Shown here: positions 1,320 to 24,816 of the stretch, one piece after another
Layout of the letters: each line of letters begins with the position of its first letter
Position numbering within the stretch: position 1 is the stretch's first letter
Origin: a virus
Virus record (IMG/VR): IMGVR_UViG_3300025101_000172
Location: 1 to 24,944 of that record
Length of the DNA stretch: 24,944 bases
Reading direction: 5' to 3' (one strand)
The notes under the pieces: model-generated
Databases searched by the model: none
The model's input: the letters and a program-made list of their open reading frames with translations, nothing else
What the model was told of the DNA's origin: nothing
Made by a program: the position numbers and the translations under genes

Positions 1320-2546
1320 CTAATAACCCAATCTATCGTCATTTAAGGCCCCAAAGACCGTGTCATTTAGCCTAAAAAATGCTGAGTTTACGGCATCAGA
1401 CACGTTATAACGCAAGGTAAAATCATCCGGGGTTATTGCAAAAGAGATGCCATCAATAACGGATTGCCTAGCAATTTGAGATCCCTCACCAGGTGGTGTT
1501 ATTTCAATTTTTATTGAACTAGATAGCTCCAGCCCTAAAACATTTAATTGATTAGCAGCTGACAAAGTGTCAATATTTAAAACCATTTGACTGAATCTAG
1601 GCAAAGCATCCTTAAATTTAGCAAGCAAGAACGTTGCAGCCAGGGCAACATCAGAATCAGATGCATTTAATAAGTTATTTCTTTCCAGGTAACGTTTTAA
1701 ATATTTACCCTGACTAGCCGTATCCTGAGCAGTTTGTTGAGAACCACCCTCCCTGGTCAGATTTATAACGTTAAAAATTAAGTCATCATCAACGGGTTGG
1801 TTTACTTCCAAATAAGGAATGTCAGAACCATCATCTGAAAAAACAGTTGCGGTAGATGATGGGAATGAACTATGCCTATTTTTAAAATTTAAGGTGCCAT
1901 CAGAACCAGCAAAAAAACTACCATTTTCAGATTTTTCAATCTCTTGGATCAATGATAAAGCATTAGTTGATTTGTTTATTGATTGCATTGTTGAGTTTCC
2001 GGTTTCAACAGAACTAGGACCTGAATAAGCAACTTGTGAATTTGACAAGATAGAGCTGACCATTGAGCCTGAATCAGTTGAACTAACTGACAAACTTGTG
2101 GTTTCAATGTTTGCTAGCTTTACAAAAGCGTCAGAACATGAAACCTGAACCTTTGATGTTGTTTTGTTTGGATATTGAGTTAACCAATCAGTCACAAAGC
2201 CACGGTAAAGATTTGTATGACTTGACTCACCAGCAACAAGACAATCCACAATTACTTCAATTAAAGGTTCTATACCTGGAAAATATGGACCTGATGCATT
2301 TGCAGGGTTAAAACGTCCATCTGTTGAGTTTTCAAGTGTTATTGTTGCAGAACCTGATACAAAAGAGTTTAAATCACGAGATCGACCTCTTGAGATTGAA
2401 ACAGACTGAACAAAAGAAGTCACGTCAGTAAAAGTTGTAGCACCACCTAAAACGTTCCCGGAATCTAAACGACCACGGATCGCATCATCAAGAGTAAAAG
2501 TATTTGGTGTAAAACCAAACCTAACACGAAGTGTAGGTGCAGCCAT
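1320..2546 (-). CDS. Minor tail protein, 408 aa (baseplate/hub-like)
   Basis: The protein follows the tape-measure gene directly (TAATG overlap), where siphophages encode the distal-tail and hub proteins. The N-terminal third contains repeated beta motifs: TDVTSFVQSVSISRGRSRDL, a TITLENSTDGRFNP segment, then LIEVIVDCLVAG and YRGFVTDWLTQYP. This pattern is common in actinophage minor tail proteins, where an oligonucleotide-fold-like strand set leads into FxGxVxxW. The remainder is a mixed region with a long QSINKSTNALSLIQEIEKSE helix. It probably sits at the tail tip and links the tube to the fibres. No enzymatic motif is visible. It is the last gene of the late operon, ending beside attP. Role by position and pattern; exact subtype uncertain. 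Confidence 0.7.
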   Translation of the reverse strand: MAAPTLRVRFGFTPNTFTLDDAIRGRLDSGNVLGGATTFTDVTSFVQSVSISRGRSRDLNSFVSGSATITLENSTDGRFNPANASGPYFPGIEPLIEVIVDCLVAGESSHTNLYRGFVTDWLTQYPNKTTSKVQVSCSDAFVKLANIETTSLSVSSTDSGSMVSSILSNSQVAYSGPSSVETGNSTMQSINKSTNALSLIQEIEKSENGSFFAGSDGTLNFKNRHSSFPSSTATVFSDDGSDIPYLEVNQPVDDDLIFNVINLTREGGSQQTAQDTASQGKYLKRYLERNNLLNASDSDVALAATFLLAKFKDALPRFSQMVLNIDTLSAANQLNVLGLELSSSIKIEITPPGEGSQIARQSVIDGISFAITPDDFTLRYNVSDAVNSAFFRLNDTVFGALNDDRLGY

Positions 2547-4768
2547 TATTGAATATCAAAGCCGCTTAGTCTTAAATTAAGTGGACCGTTGCGTCTTTGG
2601 AACTGTCTAAGAACTTCAACAACGTCCCTTCCAACATCAGTACCATTGGTACCCATGCCAGCATTGACCGTAACGTTTATATTAGTCTGGCCAAGGTTGC
2701 CGCCAGCTCTCGACAACGGAATCACAGCCTCAGGCCCACTCTCACCAATTAAGGCAGTTGTAGGCTGAGATACAATACCACCCCTGGCCAATCTTGGGAT
2801 GTTTGGTAAATCAGGTGGGTCAATGTCAATGCCAAAGAAACTGAAACCCAGGCCTGAATTTAAAGAATTAATAAAATCATTAATTTTGTCAATAACTTTA
2901 TTAAATACAAACTTAACTCCTTCAAATACAACACCAGCTGAAGTTTTAAGCACGGTGCTTATAGTTTCTAGTAAACCTTTACCAAACTCCTTTAATTTAG
3001 GTGCAACAAAGTCCTTGACCCTTCCGAGTCCGTCAATGATTACATCTTTTAAAACACCAACGAAATCCCAGGATCCCTTGAAAAAATCTAACAGACCTTT
3101 AAATATTGCTTTGAATCCATCAACAGCAAGAGAAACATCACCAGTCAAAAGACCAGTTATAACATTTACAATGCCTTGAAAAAACTCTTGTAATTTATGA
3201 AACTTATCCACAACAAAGTCAATGGCACTTGCAAAACCTCGCTGAAACCCATCACCTTTAAAAAACGCAACAAAGCTAGAAAATGTATTTTTTAAAAACG
3301 CAACTGTGTTCTCAACAAAGTCTCTAAAAACTTTTACATTGTCAAAAGCAAATCTAAATCCAGCAGCTAAACCAGCAATTAAACCTAACACGATCACAAA
3401 AGGGCTAAATAAAGCAGCAAAAGCCGTAGCAAGAGATACAACAGATGCAAGCAAGATCCCTCCAATAACAACAGCTAAGCCAGTAAAAGCAACCTTAGGG
3501 TTGTCTTTTGTGAATTCTCTTATTCTTTTAAAAACAGGTGTAAGTTTCTCTTCAAGTTTCTCAAAACCAACACGAATGTTATTTATTAAACCAAGAAATT
3601 GGTCAGATCCTAAAAACTCCCTGACCGCATCACTAAAAGCCTTTACCCTTGGCTGCAATCTTGCAAATACAGCTTGGGCCTTGTCAATAAAATCTAAAAG
3701 AATCGGTGCTAATTTTTGGCCAATCTCAATAACAAAAACATTGATCGCTGCTCTTATTTTGTCCAGGACAAGTCCAATACCACTTGCACCCTGTGTAAAA
3801 GCAGCCTCAGTAGCACCAGCAGCATCACCAGCAGCTAAAAGCTCAGCTGCAAACTTTTCTGAACCTTTACCGGTTAGAGTTTGTATAGCACCAAGTGCTT
3901 CAACAGAACCAACAAATTGAGCTAAAGGCTTACCTTGGGCCTCGGCTCCTTTTTTGATTATGTCGAAACCCTCCTTCATGTTTCCACCACTTGCAATAAA
4001 CTCCTCAAAACTTTGACCAGTTAACTCCATAAACAACTTAGAAATTTGACTTGTAGGTTTTGCTAATTCAGATAAAGCAGCACGAATCTGAGTCATTGCA
4101 ACACTGGTCGGAGTACCAGCAGCAGTTAATGTAGCCGTTGCAGCAGTTACATCACCAAAAGCGATCCCCATAGATGCAGCAATCGGTGCAACATTAAACA
4201 TAGCATTTGATAACTCTTCTACCGTGGTCTTTCCACCTTTTACAGCAGTAAAGATAATGTCAGATGCCTCACCAACAGAAATAACGTCAGAACCAAAAGC
4301 ATTGACAACAGTAGTCAAACCATCAACAGCTGTGCCTAAATCAGTAGCACCACCAACAGCTAATTTATTTGCAGTTTCTAAGAAATCAAAAACGTTTCCA
4401 GGTGGCACACCAGCAGATAATGAATTATACAAAGATGGAATAACATCCTCAGGTAACCTGCCAATTTCTTTTGATACTTGCAATATGTCCGCAGACATTT
4501 GATCCATAGCATCAGAACTTATACCAGGCAAAAGAGTGAAAACCTCGTTCATTCCATCCTCAAAACCACGGAACTCACTCAAGGCTTTAGTTGCAACAGC
4601 ACCAGCACCAATCCCAATACCAGCAAAAACTTTATTAATTTGACCACCGACACGGTTCATGTCCTGGCCTAGAGCGTCAAACTTCTTTCCAACAGCTCCA
4701 ACTTTGCCTAAAAACTTCTTAGTGTCAGCTAAAAACTCAAACCTTAGCGTTTTCTTTGTATCAGCCAT
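2546..4768 (-). CDS. Tail tape measure protein, 740 aa
   Basis: The tape measure sets tail length and occupies the tube lumen. Residues 1-70 form a charged start (MADTKKTLRFEFLADTKKF) leading to the TP901-type core at about 75-340, with the recognisable patterns SAGVPPGNVFDFL, AVGGATDLGTAVDGL, VEELSNAMFNVAPIAASMG and AAGTPTSVAMTQIRAAL. A hydrophobic stretch (about 425-470, VAFTGLAVVIGGILLA then FVIVLGLIAGLAAG) is typical of the membrane-active middle part. The C-terminus carries GESGPEAVIPL, common in this family. It starts in a TAATG overlap with the gp10-like gene. At a rough 0.15 nm per residue the tail would be about 110 nm. Identification is firm. Confidence 0.93.
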   Translation of the reverse strand: MADTKKTLRFEFLADTKKFLGKVGAVGKKFDALGQDMNRVGGQINKVFAGIGIGAGAVATKALSEFRGFEDGMNEVFTLLPGISSDAMDQMSADILQVSKEIGRLPEDVIPSLYNSLSAGVPPGNVFDFLETANKLAVGGATDLGTAVDGLTTVVNAFGSDVISVGEASDIIFTAVKGGKTTVEELSNAMFNVAPIAASMGIAFGDVTAATATLTAAGTPTSVAMTQIRAALSELAKPTSQISKLFMELTGQSFEEFIASGGNMKEGFDIIKKGAEAQGKPLAQFVGSVEALGAIQTLTGKGSEKFAAELLAAGDAAGATEAAFTQGASGIGLVLDKIRAAINVFVIEIGQKLAPILLDFIDKAQAVFARLQPRVKAFSDAVREFLGSDQFLGLINNIRVGFEKLEEKLTPVFKRIREFTKDNPKVAFTGLAVVIGGILLASVVSLATAFAALFSPFVIVLGLIAGLAAGFRFAFDNVKVFRDFVENTVAFLKNTFSSFVAFFKGDGFQRGFASAIDFVVDKFHKLQEFFQGIVNVITGLLTGDVSLAVDGFKAIFKGLLDFFKGSWDFVGVLKDVIIDGLGRVKDFVAPKLKEFGKGLLETISTVLKTSAGVVFEGVKFVFNKVIDKINDFINSLNSGLGFSFFGIDIDPPDLPNIPRLARGGIVSQPTTALIGESGPEAVIPLSRAGGNLGQTNINVTVNAGMGTNGTDVGRDVVEVLRQFQRRNGPLNLRLSGFDIQ

Positions 4769-5439
4769 TATTTACCTTTTATCGCTTTTTTTACTATTTG
4801 CTGCATTTCAGATGCATATTCCTCACCGAGTCCAGGGGTTACCTTTGCAATTGTTTTTTCAGCAACATACCCGCCAAACTTTGTACCTTCAGGAAACCCT
4901 CCACGATTGGACCAAAAGGTGCCAATCCATTCTTTATAAACCCTGCGTCTCATTTTTTCAGCAGGATAATACACACCGATTGTCTTTAATCTTTGCTTGC
5001 CTTCGTCATCTCTAAATGCACGGTTTACATTGCCTCGTTGAGTTTTGCTCAACTCATTAGTTGCAAATCCAGGCTTTCTGTCGCCTCCGGATCCCGCAGC
5101 TAAACCAGGAATAAACTGATATTTTCGTCCAAACTCAAGGTTTCTAGCAAATTTGTTGGTTTTTCTAATGTCCAGGAACGCAACACGATCCGTACCACCA
5201 CCAACAAAACCAGCAGAACCTCGTGCTCTTTTAGGCACGGCACGGCCTTGTTCTTTTTGTCTTAAAGCCTCAGAACGAGTGTCAGCCTCAACAGACTTAG
5301 CTAAGCCTTTATGAAACTGTCTAAATTGACTACGGACCTCACCGGCCTGCTCCATACCTCGTAGGCCTCTTAAAACATCATTTAAACCCTCAACAGCTAT
5401 ACCACTGCCTGCGGCTTTTTTCGTTATGCCTTTCGCCAT
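4768..5439 (-). CDS. HK97 gp10-like tail/neck protein, 223 aa
   Basis: The N-terminus (AVEGLNDVLRGLRGM) is the typical opening of the gp10-like tail-completion family, followed by basic helices (SEALRQKEQGRAVPKRARG) and a C-terminal YASEMQQIVKKAIKGK helix. Such proteins usually join head and tail or cap the tail tube. It is longer than the usual 120-160 residues. It lies between the tail chaperone and the tape measure, not with the other connectors at 15402-16450, which is unusual. Both ends are TAATG overlaps. It could instead be a tail-specific paralogue with a different role. Family match moderate; role inferred. Confidence 0.6.
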   Translation of the reverse strand: MAKGITKKAAGSGIAVEGLNDVLRGLRGMEQAGEVRSQFRQFHKGLAKSVEADTRSEALRQKEQGRAVPKRARGSAGFVGGGTDRVAFLDIRKTNKFARNLEFGRKYQFIPGLAAGSGGDRKPGFATNELSKTQRGNVNRAFRDDEGKQRLKTIGVYYPAEKMRRRVYKEWIGTFWSNRGGFPEGTKFGGYVAEKTIAKVTPGLGEEYASEMQQIVKKAIKGK

Positions 5440-5597
5440 TATTTGCCTTTTTCTTGTTCGCTTCTTTTTAAAAGCGAGTTTTGCAAACCCATAAAGAACT
5501 CGAGTGGCATGTCGGCCACTTCCACCGGATTGAGTCCAGCAGCAAGTGCAACATCACAAATTAAAGAAACAAAGTGGCCGGTAGTTAGTCCGAGGAA
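5439..5597 (-). CDS. Second tail-assembly-chaperone frame (gpT-like), up to 52 codons
   Basis: An open stretch in the -1 frame relative to the gene at 5585-5896 begins after a TGA at 5600-5598 and ends with a TAA overlapping the next ATG. Its content (HFVSLICDVALAAGLNP, then EVADMPLEFFMGLQNSLLKR) resembles the C-terminal extension that siphophages make by frameshifting from the first chaperone frame. It has no ATG until codon 30. The shift would have to occur within 5597-5588, where no standard XXXYYYZ heptamer is visible. Expression by an unusual frameshift or by reinitiation at an internal GTG or ATG are both possible. Without an experiment the mature product is undefined. Confidence 0.55.
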   Translation of the reverse strand, partial: FLGLTTGHFVSLICDVALAAGLNPVEVADMPLEFFMGLQNSLLKRSEQEKGK

Positions 5598-5896
5598 TCA
5601 TCCCCATCTAAGCCATCAATGCTTGATACCTTCTCAAGCCATTTGTCAAAATTTTCTGTAGTTCCTAAACGTTTTGATGCATGCCAACATAAATACATGA
5701 GTTCCTCAAATGCCAAATTTTGTAGTTCGGCAGCTGGACGGTTCCCAAATTTACGCTCAACAGCAACAAAGTCAATAGGACGCAAATCAAGTTCTTGCGT
5801 GGTTTCGTCTACATACACCAAAGTGAGCTGGTGTAACCCTGATGAACCTGCCACGATTAACTCGTTGCTCTCGTTATTGTGCCGGAAGTTGGCCAA
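5585..5896 (-). CDS. Tail assembly chaperone (gpG-like), about 103 aa
   Basis: The pattern LDLRPIDFVAVERKFG, then AFEELMYLCWHASKRLG and FDKWLEKVSSI, is the usual signature of actinophage tail assembly chaperones, which coat the tape measure before the tube polymerises. Its place between tail tube and tape measure supports this. The ATG is missing: the longest frame starts with TTG at 5896, overlapping the end of the tail-tube gene by 40 bases with no ribosome site. A GTG at codon 16 (GTG-GCA-GGT) is an alternative. The acidic tail (DGLDGDDSSD) precedes the change of frame to the gpT-like segment. Role secure; start codon uncertain. Confidence 0.8.
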   Translation of the reverse strand: MANFRHNNESNELIVAGSSGLHQLTLVYVDETTQELDLRPIDFVAVERKFGNRPAAELQNLAFEELMYLCWHASKRLGTTENFDKWLEKVSSIDGLDGDDSSD

Positions 5897-6264
5897 GTCA
5901 CTGAAGTAGTGGCAAGGTCACCTACAGCATTCCCAACAGGTACATGCTGAGTCACCAAACAATTACCTGAATAGGATGGGTTAGTAGCACTTACTGAGCC
6001 ACTTGTTGGTTTAACAACATATGCAACGTTAGTCCCTAGGATAGGAAATATAGTTGCATCGATCTCTGCCGCAGCAAAGTCGCTGTTAAATTCCAAGCTT
6101 AAGCTGCCTTCCTTTAATCCGCCTTTTCTTGAGCGGAAGGTTGACCCCATAGCCGTATCATCCTGCTCTTCAGCTGTGATATCTAAAGTAACAGAACGGA
6201 CATGGTCAGATAAATCTACTGAATTGATTGTCACAGACGCATCTGTGAAAACAAAAGTAGCCAT
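5857..6264 (-). CDS. Tail tube protein, short paralogue, 135 aa
   Basis: This gene stands directly before the tail chaperone and tape measure, the canonical position of the major tail tube gene. The protein (MATFVFTDASVTINSVDLSD, then SVTLDITAEEQDDTAMGSTF and GGLKEGSLSLEFNSDF) is clearly related to the gene at 14458-15189. Both share MATFVxTD, the S(V/M)TLD(I/L)TA(E/D)E strand, an FRS(R/K) turn and a GL(K/Q)(E/D) strand. Length and strand spacing fit the tube-forming fold, in which hexameric rings stack around the tape measure. The start has AAGGA upstream, and an AT-rich 248-base spacer with possible promoter signals precedes it, so it probably begins its own transcript. Confidence 0.75.
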   Translation of the reverse strand: MATFVFTDASVTINSVDLSDHVRSVTLDITAEEQDDTAMGSTFRSRKGGLKEGSLSLEFNSDFAAAEIDATIFPILGTNVAYVVKPTSGSVSATNPSYSGNCLVTQHVPVGNAVGDLATTSVTWPTSGTITRATS

Positions 6265-6285
6265 AATATTATCCTTTTCTTTTTG

Positions 6286-6296
6286 CTTACCAATAT
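6286..6296. promoter_or_regulatory. Small inverted repeat ACCA-ATA-TGGT upstream of tail tube gene
   Basis: An 11-base near-palindrome lies about 21 bases before the start of the tail-tube gene at 6264. It could be an operator half-site pair, but it is short and stands alone, so chance occurrence in AT-rich DNA is likely. Confidence 0.2.
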
Positions 6297-6438
6297 GGTA
6301 CTGAACAGATCGCTTATTTTTGGATAGTGGCCTAGCAAAAAAATAAAAATAAACTTAGGAAAAATTAATGCAAATATAGCTGTATATAGGCCATTTAGAG
6401 CCTTTCTAAGAGCTTTGTACTATGGGTAGGCCCAATGG

Positions 6439-6510
6439 TAGCCTAGACACGAAATATCGCTTAAACGGCAACGTGTGGGCTGTCAGGCCCTTATTAGTCT
6501 TTTTAGGCTA
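6439..6510 (-). other. Possible three-way-junction RNA structure or terminator in the 6265-6512 spacer
   Basis: Starting two bases after the stop of the gene at 6513-6920, the minus-strand transcript can pair TAGCCTA (6510-6504) with TAGGCTA (6445-6439). Inside are GGGC (6490-6487) with GCCC (6480-6477), and ACACG (6476-6472) with CGTGT (6451-6447). A further TAGGC/GCCTA pair overlaps at 6427-6445. Stems are 4-7 bp, so stability is modest. It may be a terminator-like or processing structure ending the 6513-6920 transcript. The rest of the 248-base spacer (6265-6438) is AT-rich with no gene that I can see. Confidence 0.3.
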
Positions 6511-6512
6511 TT

Positions 6513-13368: not shown

Positions 13369-14262
13369 CTAGCCTAATGCCAATATTAAACCAACAGATG
13401 AACCGCCACCTCCAGCAGCAGGATACAAAGACAAAGAGCCACTGCCACCCATGCCGCTGTGGTTTGAGCAATAATAATAAAGTGTTTTTGTTGCACCAGC
13501 GATCCCTAATGTTTCAGGTGTTATCTCAATTTGAACATATGCGTTAGCACTTCCAGGGGTTCCGGAAGTTGTAACATTAGTCGTGAACTCAGCTCCGCTG
13601 TTATGAGAGCCATCCTCAGTAGTTGAAAATTTTAAATTATGACCTGAAAAAGATGAATCACTTACGTCAAATTTATATTTAAAACCTGTTGCAAGATCCA
13701 TGGCCGGTGACCTTGTGCCAGCACCTGAATCCGTGCCATTCAAAAAATAAAAAACGTTTTGACTGCCGGAACCATCATCTGCAACTTTTACAGTAAATAA
13801 AATAGTTAAAGTGCTTGTACCAGCAGTAACAGCATCAATAGCAGCTTGAGTGGCAGTTGAAACCGGCAGATCATTTAAAGTTGTCTTTTTTACAGCATTT
13901 GACGCACTAACATCAGCAATTAAAATCTCATCCCCACTTGCTGGAGTTGCAGAACTTGCAGCGTTTACATCTACGTTTAAAGTAACAGAACCGCTGGCTC
14001 CACCACCATCCATGGCTGTCCCTGCATTGACCGCTGTGATATCGCCCTCACCAATATACGAGGCCCAGCTGGAACCGGAATAGAATTGTAAAACATTGGA
14101 ATCAGCAAGATAGCAGAACTGACCCTCAACAGGGCTTGAAATTTGTGCATCACGAGCGGTTGAATCTGCAAAAATAGCAATGCTTTGCTCCATTAAATAA
14201 TCATTGACATCAGCAGCAGTTAATACTTCAGATACTGAAAATACTTTAAAACCATTAGCCAT
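13369..14262 (-). CDS. Tail fibre protein with cupredoxin-like domain, 297 aa
   Basis: The N-terminus (MANGFKVFSVSEVLTAADVN) is a typical fibre-attachment segment, followed by QFCYLADSNVLQFYSGSSW and a Thr/Ser-rich shaft (residues about 70-150). Residues about 155-280 resemble a cupredoxin: FKYKFDVSDSSFSGHNLKFS supplies an upstream HN, and LYYYCSNHSGMGGSG has Cys-x2-His-x2-Met, the spacing of copper ligands in amicyanin. The fold may be structural only, and metal binding is unproven. I chose ATG at 14262 over TTG at 14268. No ribosome site is seen; TATTCT lies six bases before the ATG, so a leaderless mRNA is likely. It opens the fibre operon after a terminator region. Confidence 0.75.
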   Translation of the reverse strand: MANGFKVFSVSEVLTAADVNDYLMEQSIAIFADSTARDAQISSPVEGQFCYLADSNVLQFYSGSSWASYIGEGDITAVNAGTAMDGGGASGSVTLNVDVNAASSATPASGDEILIADVSASNAVKKTTLNDLPVSTATQAAIDAVTAGTSTLTILFTVKVADDGSGSQNVFYFLNGTDSGAGTRSPAMDLATGFKYKFDVSDSSFSGHNLKFSTTEDGSHNSGAEFTTNVTTSGTPGSANAYVQIEITPETLGIAGATKTLYYYCSNHSGMGGSGSLSLYPAAGGGGSSVGLILALG

Positions 14263-14457: not shown

Positions 14458-15189
14458 TTAAACAATTCCAACGCTTATGAAAACCTTAAATGATGGGCTG
14501 GTTCCACTGAGCGTGTAATTTATTCTGAAATGTGTGTCAGTTATTGCACCAGCAACCTTTGAATATTGTGCTCCTACAGAAGTAAAGTTTGTCAAAGTTA
14601 TACGATCGGTAGGACTTGTAAAAGAACCATTGTCGTCACTTTGAACTTTAAGTGCCAAAGTTGGTGTTGAAGTTCCTGATACAGATACAACATGAGCAGC
14701 AACAAATAAAGATTTGCCTGCTGCAACAGCTCCTAGGTTTCGTCCAGTTGAATTACCAGTTGCTGTTAAATTTGCAGAATCATCAACCATGATAGTGCCA
14801 CGAACAGCACGATCGGAACTGTTAGCATTTGTTATGGAAAACGGCATTACATCGCCAACCGCTCCACCAATTGAATAACTAAAGTTCCTGGATTTTAAAA
14901 AATATGCAGTATCACCAGCAGATGAAGTAGGGGATACAGTACCAATGAGTTCAGCACCAGCTGATACACCAAGTAAAGCGTCAGGCTTGTCAGTACCTGC
15001 CTCAAAAAATCCATTTGCGGTCAAGCTAGCATCTTGAAGTCCCGCAATTTTTGACCTAAAACCTCCTGAGTTTATGGACGTAACATCGACCTCATCAGCA
15101 GTTAAATCCAGGGTCATTGATTGAGTATGGCCTGACATGTCAAAGCCATTAAGAAAAAATCTACCGTCAGTTAATACAAAAGTAGCCAT
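14458..15189 (-). CDS. Tail-tube-like major tail protein, long paralogue, 243 aa
   Basis: Residues 1-130 are related to the short tail-tube protein at 5857-6264 (MATFVLTDGRFFLNGFDMSG, SMTLDLTADEVDVTS, FRSKIAGLQDASLT). A second part, about 140-243, is another Ser/Thr-rich beta domain (KSLFVAAHVVSVSG, LALKVQSDDNGSF, RITLTNFTSVGAQY) such as tube proteins display on the outside. It ends the connector cluster, two genes after the tail terminator, where many actinophages place the major tail protein. It starts immediately after the stop of the 20-residue gene. It could be the main tube subunit, with the other copy tail-proximal, or a head-tail adaptor or decoration. Which copy builds the tube cannot be told from sequence. 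Confidence 0.7.
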   Translation of the reverse strand: MATFVLTDGRFFLNGFDMSGHTQSMTLDLTADEVDVTSINSGGFRSKIAGLQDASLTANGFFEAGTDKPDALLGVSAGAELIGTVSPTSSAGDTAYFLKSRNFSYSIGGAVGDVMPFSITNANSSDRAVRGTIMVDDSANLTATGNSTGRNLGAVAAGKSLFVAAHVVSVSGTSTPTLALKVQSDDNGSFTSPTDRITLTNFTSVGAQYSKVAGAITDTHFRINYTLSGTSPSFKVFISVGIV

Positions 15190-22869: not shown

Positions 22870-23381
22870 TACTCCTCCTCCAGGAGTTCCAAAATCCTTG
22901 GATCCGTAGCCGTATCCTCGCTTGAATTTAAAAGATCGTTTATAGATGCCAAAGAAGTTGCAGCCTCACCAACAGCAATTCCAAGTCTTTGACGAGCCAT
23001 CGGAGTCAAACCTAACTCGTTCTCGAGTCTAAGTATTTGAGTCTCGAGTTTTAGAGCATGCTCCGCTAAGGGATTGGTGCGAATTTGTCCAGTTGAACCA
23101 CGAACTACTAAAGACTTTTTAACAACTTTCATAACCCTGGAATATTGATCGTACATCCCAAACAATCTCTCAACAGCTGGAACGTCAACCTCTTGAGCGA
23201 CACCAGCAACATCAGAATCCCAGTAAGTGTACCAACGGTCCCTGGTTTGTTTTAACCAGCCACGAGTTGGCTTCGGTGGTTCATTCTTTAGTTCAGATGA
23301 ACCTGAGATAATCTGCAACTCACGTGAACGATGGCCCTGGGCCTCACCGGCTGGCTTTGGAAGTGGGCCTCTTTTACCCAC
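22869..23381 (-). CDS. terS: Terminase small subunit, P27-like, 170 aa
   Basis: The start is GTG at 23381, giving VGKRGPLPKPAGEAQGHRSR, the usual opening of P27-type small terminases, with GGAG eight bases upstream. Then come KPTRGWLKQTRDRWYTYW, VDVPAVERLFGMYDQYSRVM, RTNPLAEHALKLETQILRLE and ELGLTPMARQRLGI, all typical. It recognises the packaging site and stimulates the large subunit. It overlaps the 3' end of the methylase gene by eight bases. A longer upstream frame exists but has no homology-like content and no ribosome site. Identification is good. Confidence 0.85.
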   Translation of the reverse strand: MGKRGPLPKPAGEAQGHRSRELQIISGSSELKNEPPKPTRGWLKQTRDRWYTYWDSDVAGVAQEVDVPAVERLFGMYDQYSRVMKVVKKSLVVRGSTGQIRTNPLAEHALKLETQILRLENELGLTPMARQRLGIAVGEAATSLASINDLLNSSEDTATDPRILELLEEE

Positions 23382-24816
23382 CAGCAGCTCCAGGTAAATG
23401 CTTAACAGTTTCATCCGGGTAAGCATTTTTAAATCTATCAACAATGACATCAACATAAGCAGGGTCAAGTTCAATCGTGTAACACTTTCTATTTAAAGCA
23501 TGAGCAGCAATAAGCGTGCTGCCGGATCCCGCAAAAGGGTCCAGGACTAAATCACCAGGCTTGGATGAATAAAGTATGGCCTTAGAGAGCAGCTCCAGGG
23601 GTTTCATGGTCGGATGATCCTTATTATTCCTAGGTTTTGGAACATTCCACACGTTAGATGGCCCAAAAACCATCTCATTGACGTTAAAAGTTCTCGAATC
23701 GTCGTACATTTCCGAATTAGAACTGCCAAACAGGCCAAGATTAAGCTCCGGGTTCTTTGTTTTCTTTAGTTCACGCAGCATTTCATCATCCTCGTCGTCT
23801 AATTCAACAGTTAAATTAAAACCACCATCAAACAAATCAAGCTGTGCCTCACCAGCTTTATTATTTTTAAAGTCATCCCAAACATTTGATAGGTCTCGTC
23901 GACCAATAAAATAATGTGACTTACCCTCAGGCCAACCATACATGATTGGCTCAAACCTCCAATGAAAATCAGATCGGCCCAGGACAAATGAATCCTTGAC
24001 CCATATGATATTTGAGGAGTAGTGCATTTTTGCAGCAGACCAGGCTTGAAAAACAGAACTTGTCGCAGCAGTTGCATAAAACATATAAACAGCACCATCA
24101 GTAAAAGCATGAATCATAGACAAAGCATCATAAAGAAAACTTGTAAAAGAGTCCTCAGCCATTTTATCGTTTTCAATTGAACGACCATGCGTGTCTTTGT
24201 AGTCAACGTTATACGGTGGGTCAGTTAAGCACAAAGCAGCCTGGCCCTGGATACCGTAATAACTTGATGGCTCAGTAGCAGAACCACAAACAACATAGTG
24301 GTCACCAAGCCTCCAAACATCACCTAACTTGGTAACGGGATCCGCAGGGGCATCAATAATTTGCCCTTCAGATGGCAGCTCCGGCTCGATCCCTAAAAGT
24401 TTTTCAAGGTCAGCTAAGTCATAACCAGTCGCGTCAAGCATCGAATCATCAACCGCAACTCTTTCTAACATTTCAGCTAAAGCCTTATCGTCGTAAGTTC
24501 CAAGGTCAGCTGTTCTATTATCAGCCAAAGCAAAAGCCTCAGATACAGAAACATCCTCATCAACAATTGATGCAGCAATATGAGTCCAACCTAATTGAAT
24601 CGCAGCAAGCAATTGATGATTGCCTGAGATAACAATTAGAGAGTCATCACTTTCACGTCTTGCAACGATTGGCTTACGCTGACCAAACTTCTCGTAGCTT
24701 TTTACAACAGCCTGGACATTTCCTCGTCTTGGATTACCAGGCAAAGCCTTAAACAGCCCGATTGGTGTAGCCAAGTTCTCTAGATCCTTAATTATTCCGT
24801 GTTTTTTGTTAGACAT
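23374..24816 (-). CDS. ParB-like / DNA N6-adenine (or N4-cytosine) methyltransferase fusion, 480 aa
   Basis: Residues 15-120 are a ParB/sulfiredoxin-like nuclease fold (PIGLFKALPGNPR, IVARRESDDSL, VISGNHQLLAAIQLGW, AFALADNRTADL). Residues 160-480 form a DNA methyltransferase with DPPY at 199-202 ahead of the AdoMet motif DPFAGSGST at 426-434, which is the beta-class order. Between them is an acidic insert near 320-375 (DLFDGGFNLTVELDDEDDE). Such fusions are common in phages and may protect DNA from host restriction or mark packaging sites. It opens the packaging operon; the ATG follows a GGGGGG ribosome site. Target sequence and base specificity are not visible. No cognate endonuclease gene is in the window. 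Confidence 0.88.
   Translation of the reverse strand: MSNKKHGIIKDLENLATPIGLFKALPGNPRRGNVQAVVKSYEKFGQRKPIVARRESDDSLIVISGNHQLLAAIQLGWTHIAASIVDEDVSVSEAFALADNRTADLGTYDDKALAEMLERVAVDDSMLDATGYDLADLEKLLGIEPELPSEGQIIDAPADPVTKLGDVWRLGDHYVVCGSATEPSSYYGIQGQAALCLTDPPYNVDYKDTHGRSIENDKMAEDSFTSFLYDALSMIHAFTDGAVYMFYATAATSSVFQAWSAAKMHYSSNIIWVKDSFVLGRSDFHWRFEPIMYGWPEGKSHYFIGRRDLSNVWDDFKNNKAGEAQLDLFDGGFNLTVELDDEDDEMLRELKKTKNPELNLGLFGSSNSEMYDDSRTFNVNEMVFGPSNVWNVPKPRNNKDHPTMKPLELLSKAILYSSKPGDLVLDPFAGSGSTLIAAHALNRKCYTIELDPAYVDVIVDRFKNAYPDETVKHLPGAAGG

Follow-up and report, generated by a model that had tools for sequence, protein, structure and literature searches.

Does the tail fibre of a marine phage carry a copper site? 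The question is raised by a 297-aa protein encoded in a 24.9-kb linear virus record from IMG/VR (the whole stretch of DNA analysed, here called the window), in whose C-terminal domain an initial annotation had recognised the ligand motifs of type-1 copper proteins. The answer favoured here is that the domain is a mobile fibre module: a cupredoxin in which the ligands of a mononuclear type-1 copper site are all in place (His208, Cys265, His268 and Met271), and into which copper would be taken up. We consider this reading probable, though well short of certain.

Gene and genome setting

The gene lies in a short series of tail genes, transcribed in the order given here and followed, further on, by lysis genes:

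14458..15189, minus strand: upstream major tail protein gene (phrog_9522, E 9.7e-40), 99-100% conserved beside the varying fibre
13369..14262, minus strand: gene for the 297-aa tail-fibre-type protein, an ATG-started open frame after the major tail protein gene (phrog_693)
13024..13356, minus strand: next gene, 110 aa, phrog_1276-like (E 1.8e-8), a likely partner in the fibre locus, replaced along with the C-terminal peptide of the fibre
12068..13009, minus strand: glycine-rich protein, the likely adhesin of the fibre locus (PF21722, E 1e-9), absent from the related stretches L001 and L007

A Pfam search of the 297-aa protein matched no family, and PHROG profiles assigned it to phrog_693 (tail fibre, E 1.6e-17) and also to phrog_30742. 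Homology and position in the tail module are consistent with phage tail fibre proteins, and cultured relatives carry the tail fibre annotation. The earlier identification as a tail fibre is thereby backed by family profiles, gene neighbourhood and the mosaicism described below, the GenBank names of relatives counting as annotation only. These lines support a tail-fibre-type protein, putatively located in the virion, in a marine tailed phage.

The terminase and capsid of this phage are nearest to those of actinophages, at 31-36% identity. Two of its genes match major tail protein profiles (14458-15189, phrog_9522; 5857-6264, phrog_4574), and the gene order across 2546-10847 is unusual in that the tape measure gene (2546-4768) is separated from the first major tail protein gene by lysis-type genes; a gene at 10101-10847 combines DUF5675 with a peptidoglycan-binding domain. 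A 688-aa protein (7775-9841) matches no Pfam family and contains a long poly-threonine tract that precedes a strongly acidic part, and the frame at 23374-24816 appears, by eye, to resemble a fusion of a ParB-type domain with a DNA methyltransferase.

Predicted fold

The part of the protein in question is:

13411..13818, minus strand: cupredoxin-fold domain, approximately residues 149-284 (AlphaFold models; Foldseek and VIA matches mostly cupredoxins)

This domain was modelled twice by AlphaFold from alignments of its own relatives, with pLDDT of 79.8 from 38 sequences and 86.3 from 112 sequences (95 of 147 residues at 90 or above), and more than 90 near the candidate ligands. The fold predicted in both models is that of a cupredoxin, as had been supposed from the motifs: with either model, structural matches in the PDB (Foldseek, VIA) are mostly cupredoxins. 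The top match is the N-terminal cupredoxin of the three-domain nitrite reductase of Hyphomicrobium (Foldseek E 8.6e-4, probability 1.00), which in VIA (2dv6, 6tfo) aligns over 109 residues at 3.1 A and 16% identity with a Z of 8.6; since a Z of this size is modest in itself, the uniformity of the match list and the sequence bridge through phage P-HM1 (below) carry much of the argument for the fold. Rusticyanin, CueO, two-domain laccases, the A domains of ceruloplasmin and factor VIII, and amicyanin come next, and no carbohydrate-binding module is among the structural matches listed for the domain. In BFVD, structural matches to the cupredoxin model include Marseillevirus LCMAC201/202 "beta-sandwich proteins" and a phage "YHYH domain" protein.

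In the secondary structure of the model, the first His lies between the equivalents of strands beta3 and beta4, the Cys ends beta7, and the second His and the Met fall in the next loop. By strand position, the candidate ligands are thus predicted to be placed as in cupredoxins; the predicted eight-strand sandwich, with His before beta4, Cys ending beta7 and His and Met in the loop after it, is that of PF00127 members such as amicyanin and pseudoazurin.

Candidate ligands and their conservation

The four residues are:

13639..13641, minus strand: His208, first ligand candidate, in GHNLKFS (which begins at residue 207); identical in 118 of 118 relatives, and in register with the plastocyanin ligand His via P-HM1
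13468..13470, minus strand: Cys265, ligand candidate, at the end of model strand 115-120; conserved in 117 of 118 relatives
13459..13461, minus strand: His268, ligand candidate; conserved in 117 of 118 relatives
13450..13452, minus strand: Met271, axial ligand candidate; Met in 115 and Leu in 2 of 118 relatives

Both of the motifs originally pointed out are present: His208 within GHNLKFS and, near the end of the protein, Cys265-x2-His268-x2-Met271, where CSNHSGM makes up residues 265-271 and the three ligand candidates sit within YYYCSNHSGMGG. One possibility is that the motif arose by chance in an unrelated beta-sandwich, as might be suspected of a protein which, taken alone, has no significant match in the PDB or Pfam. 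It is contradicted by the fold matches, by conservation and by a significant bridge to plastocyanin, and C..H..M occurred in only 81 of 200,000 composition shuffles of the 297-aa protein (p = 0.0004); we regard it as barely credible.

Ligand conservation is a stronger test than the shuffle statistic. Of 118 diverse aligned relatives, 115 have HCHM at the four positions, two have HCHL and one has HSGY, so that nearly all homologues carry the complete set. In a bias-free scan of IMG/VR, queried with the segment between the ligands and with EYTTGVT[KTV] as the sole search word, each of the 80 distinct copies of the domain had C..H..[ML] together with the first His (79 with Met, one with Leu; one further regex match, an unrelated stretch, is left out of this count). 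Among the distinct copies from a scan seeded instead with a ligand-less relative, 15 had both the His and C..H..[ML], 34 had only the His and 13 had neither (one spurious pattern match omitted). Neither scan gave C..H..[ML] in a copy lacking the first His (Fisher p 0.03 for the ligand-less-seed scan alone, 1.6e-7 for both pooled, values that are indicative only because the sequences are related). The converse fails: the first His persists in subfamilies that have no Cys, His and Met, copper by itself therefore cannot account for its conservation, and the fold has uses without copper.

These subfamilies bear on a second possibility, already raised in the initial annotation as a retained fold used for binding: a metal-free cupredoxin serving as a generic beta-sandwich spacer or binding domain, its Cys, His, His and Met kept for other reasons. 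Related subfamilies do persist in viruses after ligand loss, and the structural matches include superfamily members without copper, a coagulation factor among them. Such a reading fits some of the relatives lacking ligands but not the subfamily of the window's own copy, which retains the complete set across wide divergence, and in which the ligands behave as a unit, C..H..[ML] never appearing without the first His. For the window protein we think it unlikely.

Further details agree with a metal site. A single Cys per domain, found in 106 of 118 relatives, is as expected of a metal ligand and not of a disulphide. Met to Leu is the sole axial change among copies retaining Cys and His, and Leu is known at the place of the axial Met in some multicopper oxidases. 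The residue after His208 is Asn in the window protein, as it is after the first ligand His of plastocyanin, azurin and amicyanin; most relatives differ from these PF00127-type cupredoxins in having His-Pro instead of His-Asn.

Variant sites were also noted in individual stretches. Leu replaces Met in L187, L193, L196 and L244 (CAVHSGL, CTVHSGL). Within L118-L197 are copies that keep the His and have lost Cys, His and Met (GHPFRLS with YAEP; GHILQFS with YYYSSGG) and others that have lost all four ligands (GLPLRFS with YYYAEG; GNAFRFS).

Which metal might be bound is a separate matter. Zinc, iron or cuprous copper only could occupy a purely structural site with no type-1 copper centre, since sequence cannot tell the metal and sites of Cys, His and Met bind several soft metals. 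The order of the ligands and the C-x2-H-x2-M spacing, however, are those of amicyanin, and they stand on a predicted cupredoxin fold; another metal is accordingly rated as quite improbable.

Sequence relationship to blue copper proteins

Direct searches did not connect the window protein with known copper proteins. A phmmer search of it against the PDB found nothing, and it matched neither PF00127 (Copper-bind), to which 15 of 118 relatives give sub-threshold hits, the best with E 0.0026, nor the amicyanin and pseudoazurin equivalogs of NCBIfam, to which only a SAR86 relative comes near (pseudoazurin, E 0.13). A broad family profile against the PDB had pseudoazurin first but below significance (E 0.78), and none of the curated families searched names a cupredoxin-like fibre domain. 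Two other leads were set aside: antibody matches of a close-relative profile in the PDB are spurious, the resemblance lying in the YYC stretch, and CBM_4_9 is sub-threshold in 16 of 118 relatives, slightly more often than Copper-bind, yet is without counterpart among the structural matches listed.

A bridge is provided by a protein of Prochlorococcus phage P-HM1, annotated as hypothetical, which carries one clear domain of the family (115 bits) and a second domain (L293:4564-4923) that is significantly related on both sides. The family profile matches this second domain with 23.8 bits and E 3.1e-4 for a search the size of the PDB (200 shuffles gave 6.1 bits at most); the second domain in turn matches plastocyanin 1b3i with E 5.6e-5, its other matches being mostly blue copper proteins, and its four candidate ligands (His, Cys, His, Met) fall on the corresponding residues of plastocyanin-like proteins. 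This alignment points to the His of GHN/GHP as the first ligand and not to that of the later THNSG (residue 220), which hhalign and a small HMM of cellular plastocyanin-like proteins had paired with the ligand His. The THNSG His is rejected on two grounds: it is not retained across the family as His208 is, and the P-HM1 bridge puts the His of GHP/VHP in register with the plastocyanin ligand. By sequence, membership in the cupredoxin superfamily is thus transitive, and together with the predicted fold it places the domain in that superfamily, though not under PF00127.

Distribution and modularity

The domain is widespread in marine phages. The window protein matches 252 GenBank phage records, mostly of Synechococcus and Prochlorococcus phages, part of them over regions other than the cupredoxin domain; a consensus query for the domain itself matches 49, pelagiphages and methylophilales phages included, and in one scan 516 IMG/VR stretches matched it. 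Domain-bearing proteins are named in GenBank as tail fibre, virion structural or hypothetical proteins. Cultured phages carry the same domain with its ligands, and the fibre proteins of phrog_693 and of cyanophages, pelagiphages and methylophilales phages are under annotations that make no mention of copper.

Bacteria have it too: Pelagibacteraceae in phage-like genes, and SAR86 in short proteins with a lipoprotein-like start, chromosomally encoded and surrounded by metabolic genes; a search of the plasmid collection found no copy. In two SAR86 loci (L096:2860-6327, L103:2830-6269) the domain-bearing lipoprotein-like gene is followed by a gene of at least 966 aa without a clear Pfam family.

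The fibre gene also has two variable parts, one on either side of the domain:

14038..14262, minus strand: N-terminal region, residues 1-75, presumed to serve in virion attachment; exchangeable, 22% identity in L004
13372..13410, minus strand: region of the C-terminal peptide GGGGSSVGLILALG, a presumed docking tip; homology with L001 and L007 ends at 13416, and peptide type tracks the next gene

The fibre of L004 is 22% identical to that of the window over the N-terminal 75 residues and 90% identical over the cupredoxin domain. At the other end, L001 and L007 encode upstream proteins 99-100% identical to those of the window and a fibre 88-90% identical, and nucleotide homology with both ends at window position 13416, after the domain and ahead of the final residues: comparison of the sequences places a recombination break directly after the cupredoxin domain. 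In the window and L001-L031, the type of C-terminal peptide (GLILALG, FDQLLLIGA, DIHGFLLMGA or FFALNG) tracks the type of the next gene, and the peptide may be a docking peptide for that gene's protein. With its flanks exchanged and the domain kept, the domain is the conserved part of an exchangeable locus which, to judge from these comparisons, is probably a hypervariable host-recognition locus.

Possible roles

On the predicted fold, ligand conservation, spread and modularity established above, we infer copper uptake and a role for it along the following lines. The module would sit between the exchangeable N-terminal region and the recombining C-terminal tip peptide; its Cys, His, His and Met would take up copper once the virion had reached the environment, outside the cell; and the copper would lock the loops at one end of the sandwich and so yield a small, robust and stable fibre module. 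What stands of the type-1-copper-like tail domain proposed in the initial annotation is the predicted cupredoxin fold and the conserved ligands; copper binding, sensing of the surroundings and stabilisation of the fibre are kept here as things the site might do.

Since the two ends of the protein vary around a conserved domain, what the domain confers is more likely to be generic, either stability or contact with some widespread component of surfaces, than strain-specific; its near constancy among phages whose hosts are unrelated speaks against binding of a strain-specific receptor. It may still make contact with some common surface component that handles copper. A more pointed version would be a "copper Trojan horse", in which the copper-loaded face docks on a host surface protein for copper uptake or handling, as has been proposed for iron in HxH fibres (PMC11705849). 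Besides this precedent, the locus resembles a hypervariable host-recognition locus, and surface lipoproteins of SAR86 carry the same domain; receptor-contacting parts usually diversify, however, and this one is near-constant across phages of unrelated hosts. We hold such docking to be doubtful, and prefer copper uptake by a generic fibre module.

Relation to known systems and significance

The cupredoxin superfamily is well known; what appears to be new is the phage-fibre setting, for which no published description was found in the literature searched (mainly open-access papers). PF00127 cupredoxins are soluble electron carriers, whereas the phage domain scores below the curated cut-off and is part of a fibre; its best structural match, the nitrite reductase N-terminal cupredoxin (2dv6, 6tfo), is an electron-transfer module of an enzyme. 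A parallel is offered by the HxH tail fibres of phage T4 gp37 and Alteromonas phage R22Y, for which an iron-binding site in a marine-relevant phage fibre has been proposed (PMC11705849). Both are proposed metal sites in fibres, but motif, metal and fold differ, and the window protein has no HxH motif, its only His residues being His208, His220 and His268.

In the boldest reading, which we think improbable, a large but unrecognised family of true copper proteins would be present in the fibres of abundant marine phages, and copper-laden virions would use the metal in attaching to hosts with copper handling at the cell surface and would add to the organic copper pool of the sea. Even if copper is not bound, the analysis supplies a fold and a name for a domain left as "tail fiber" or "hypothetical" by PHROGs, Pfam and GenBank. 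If it is, a family of metal proteins has been overlooked in widespread marine viruses, and the iron-only idea of metal-bearing tails would extend to copper, linking trace metals with infection.
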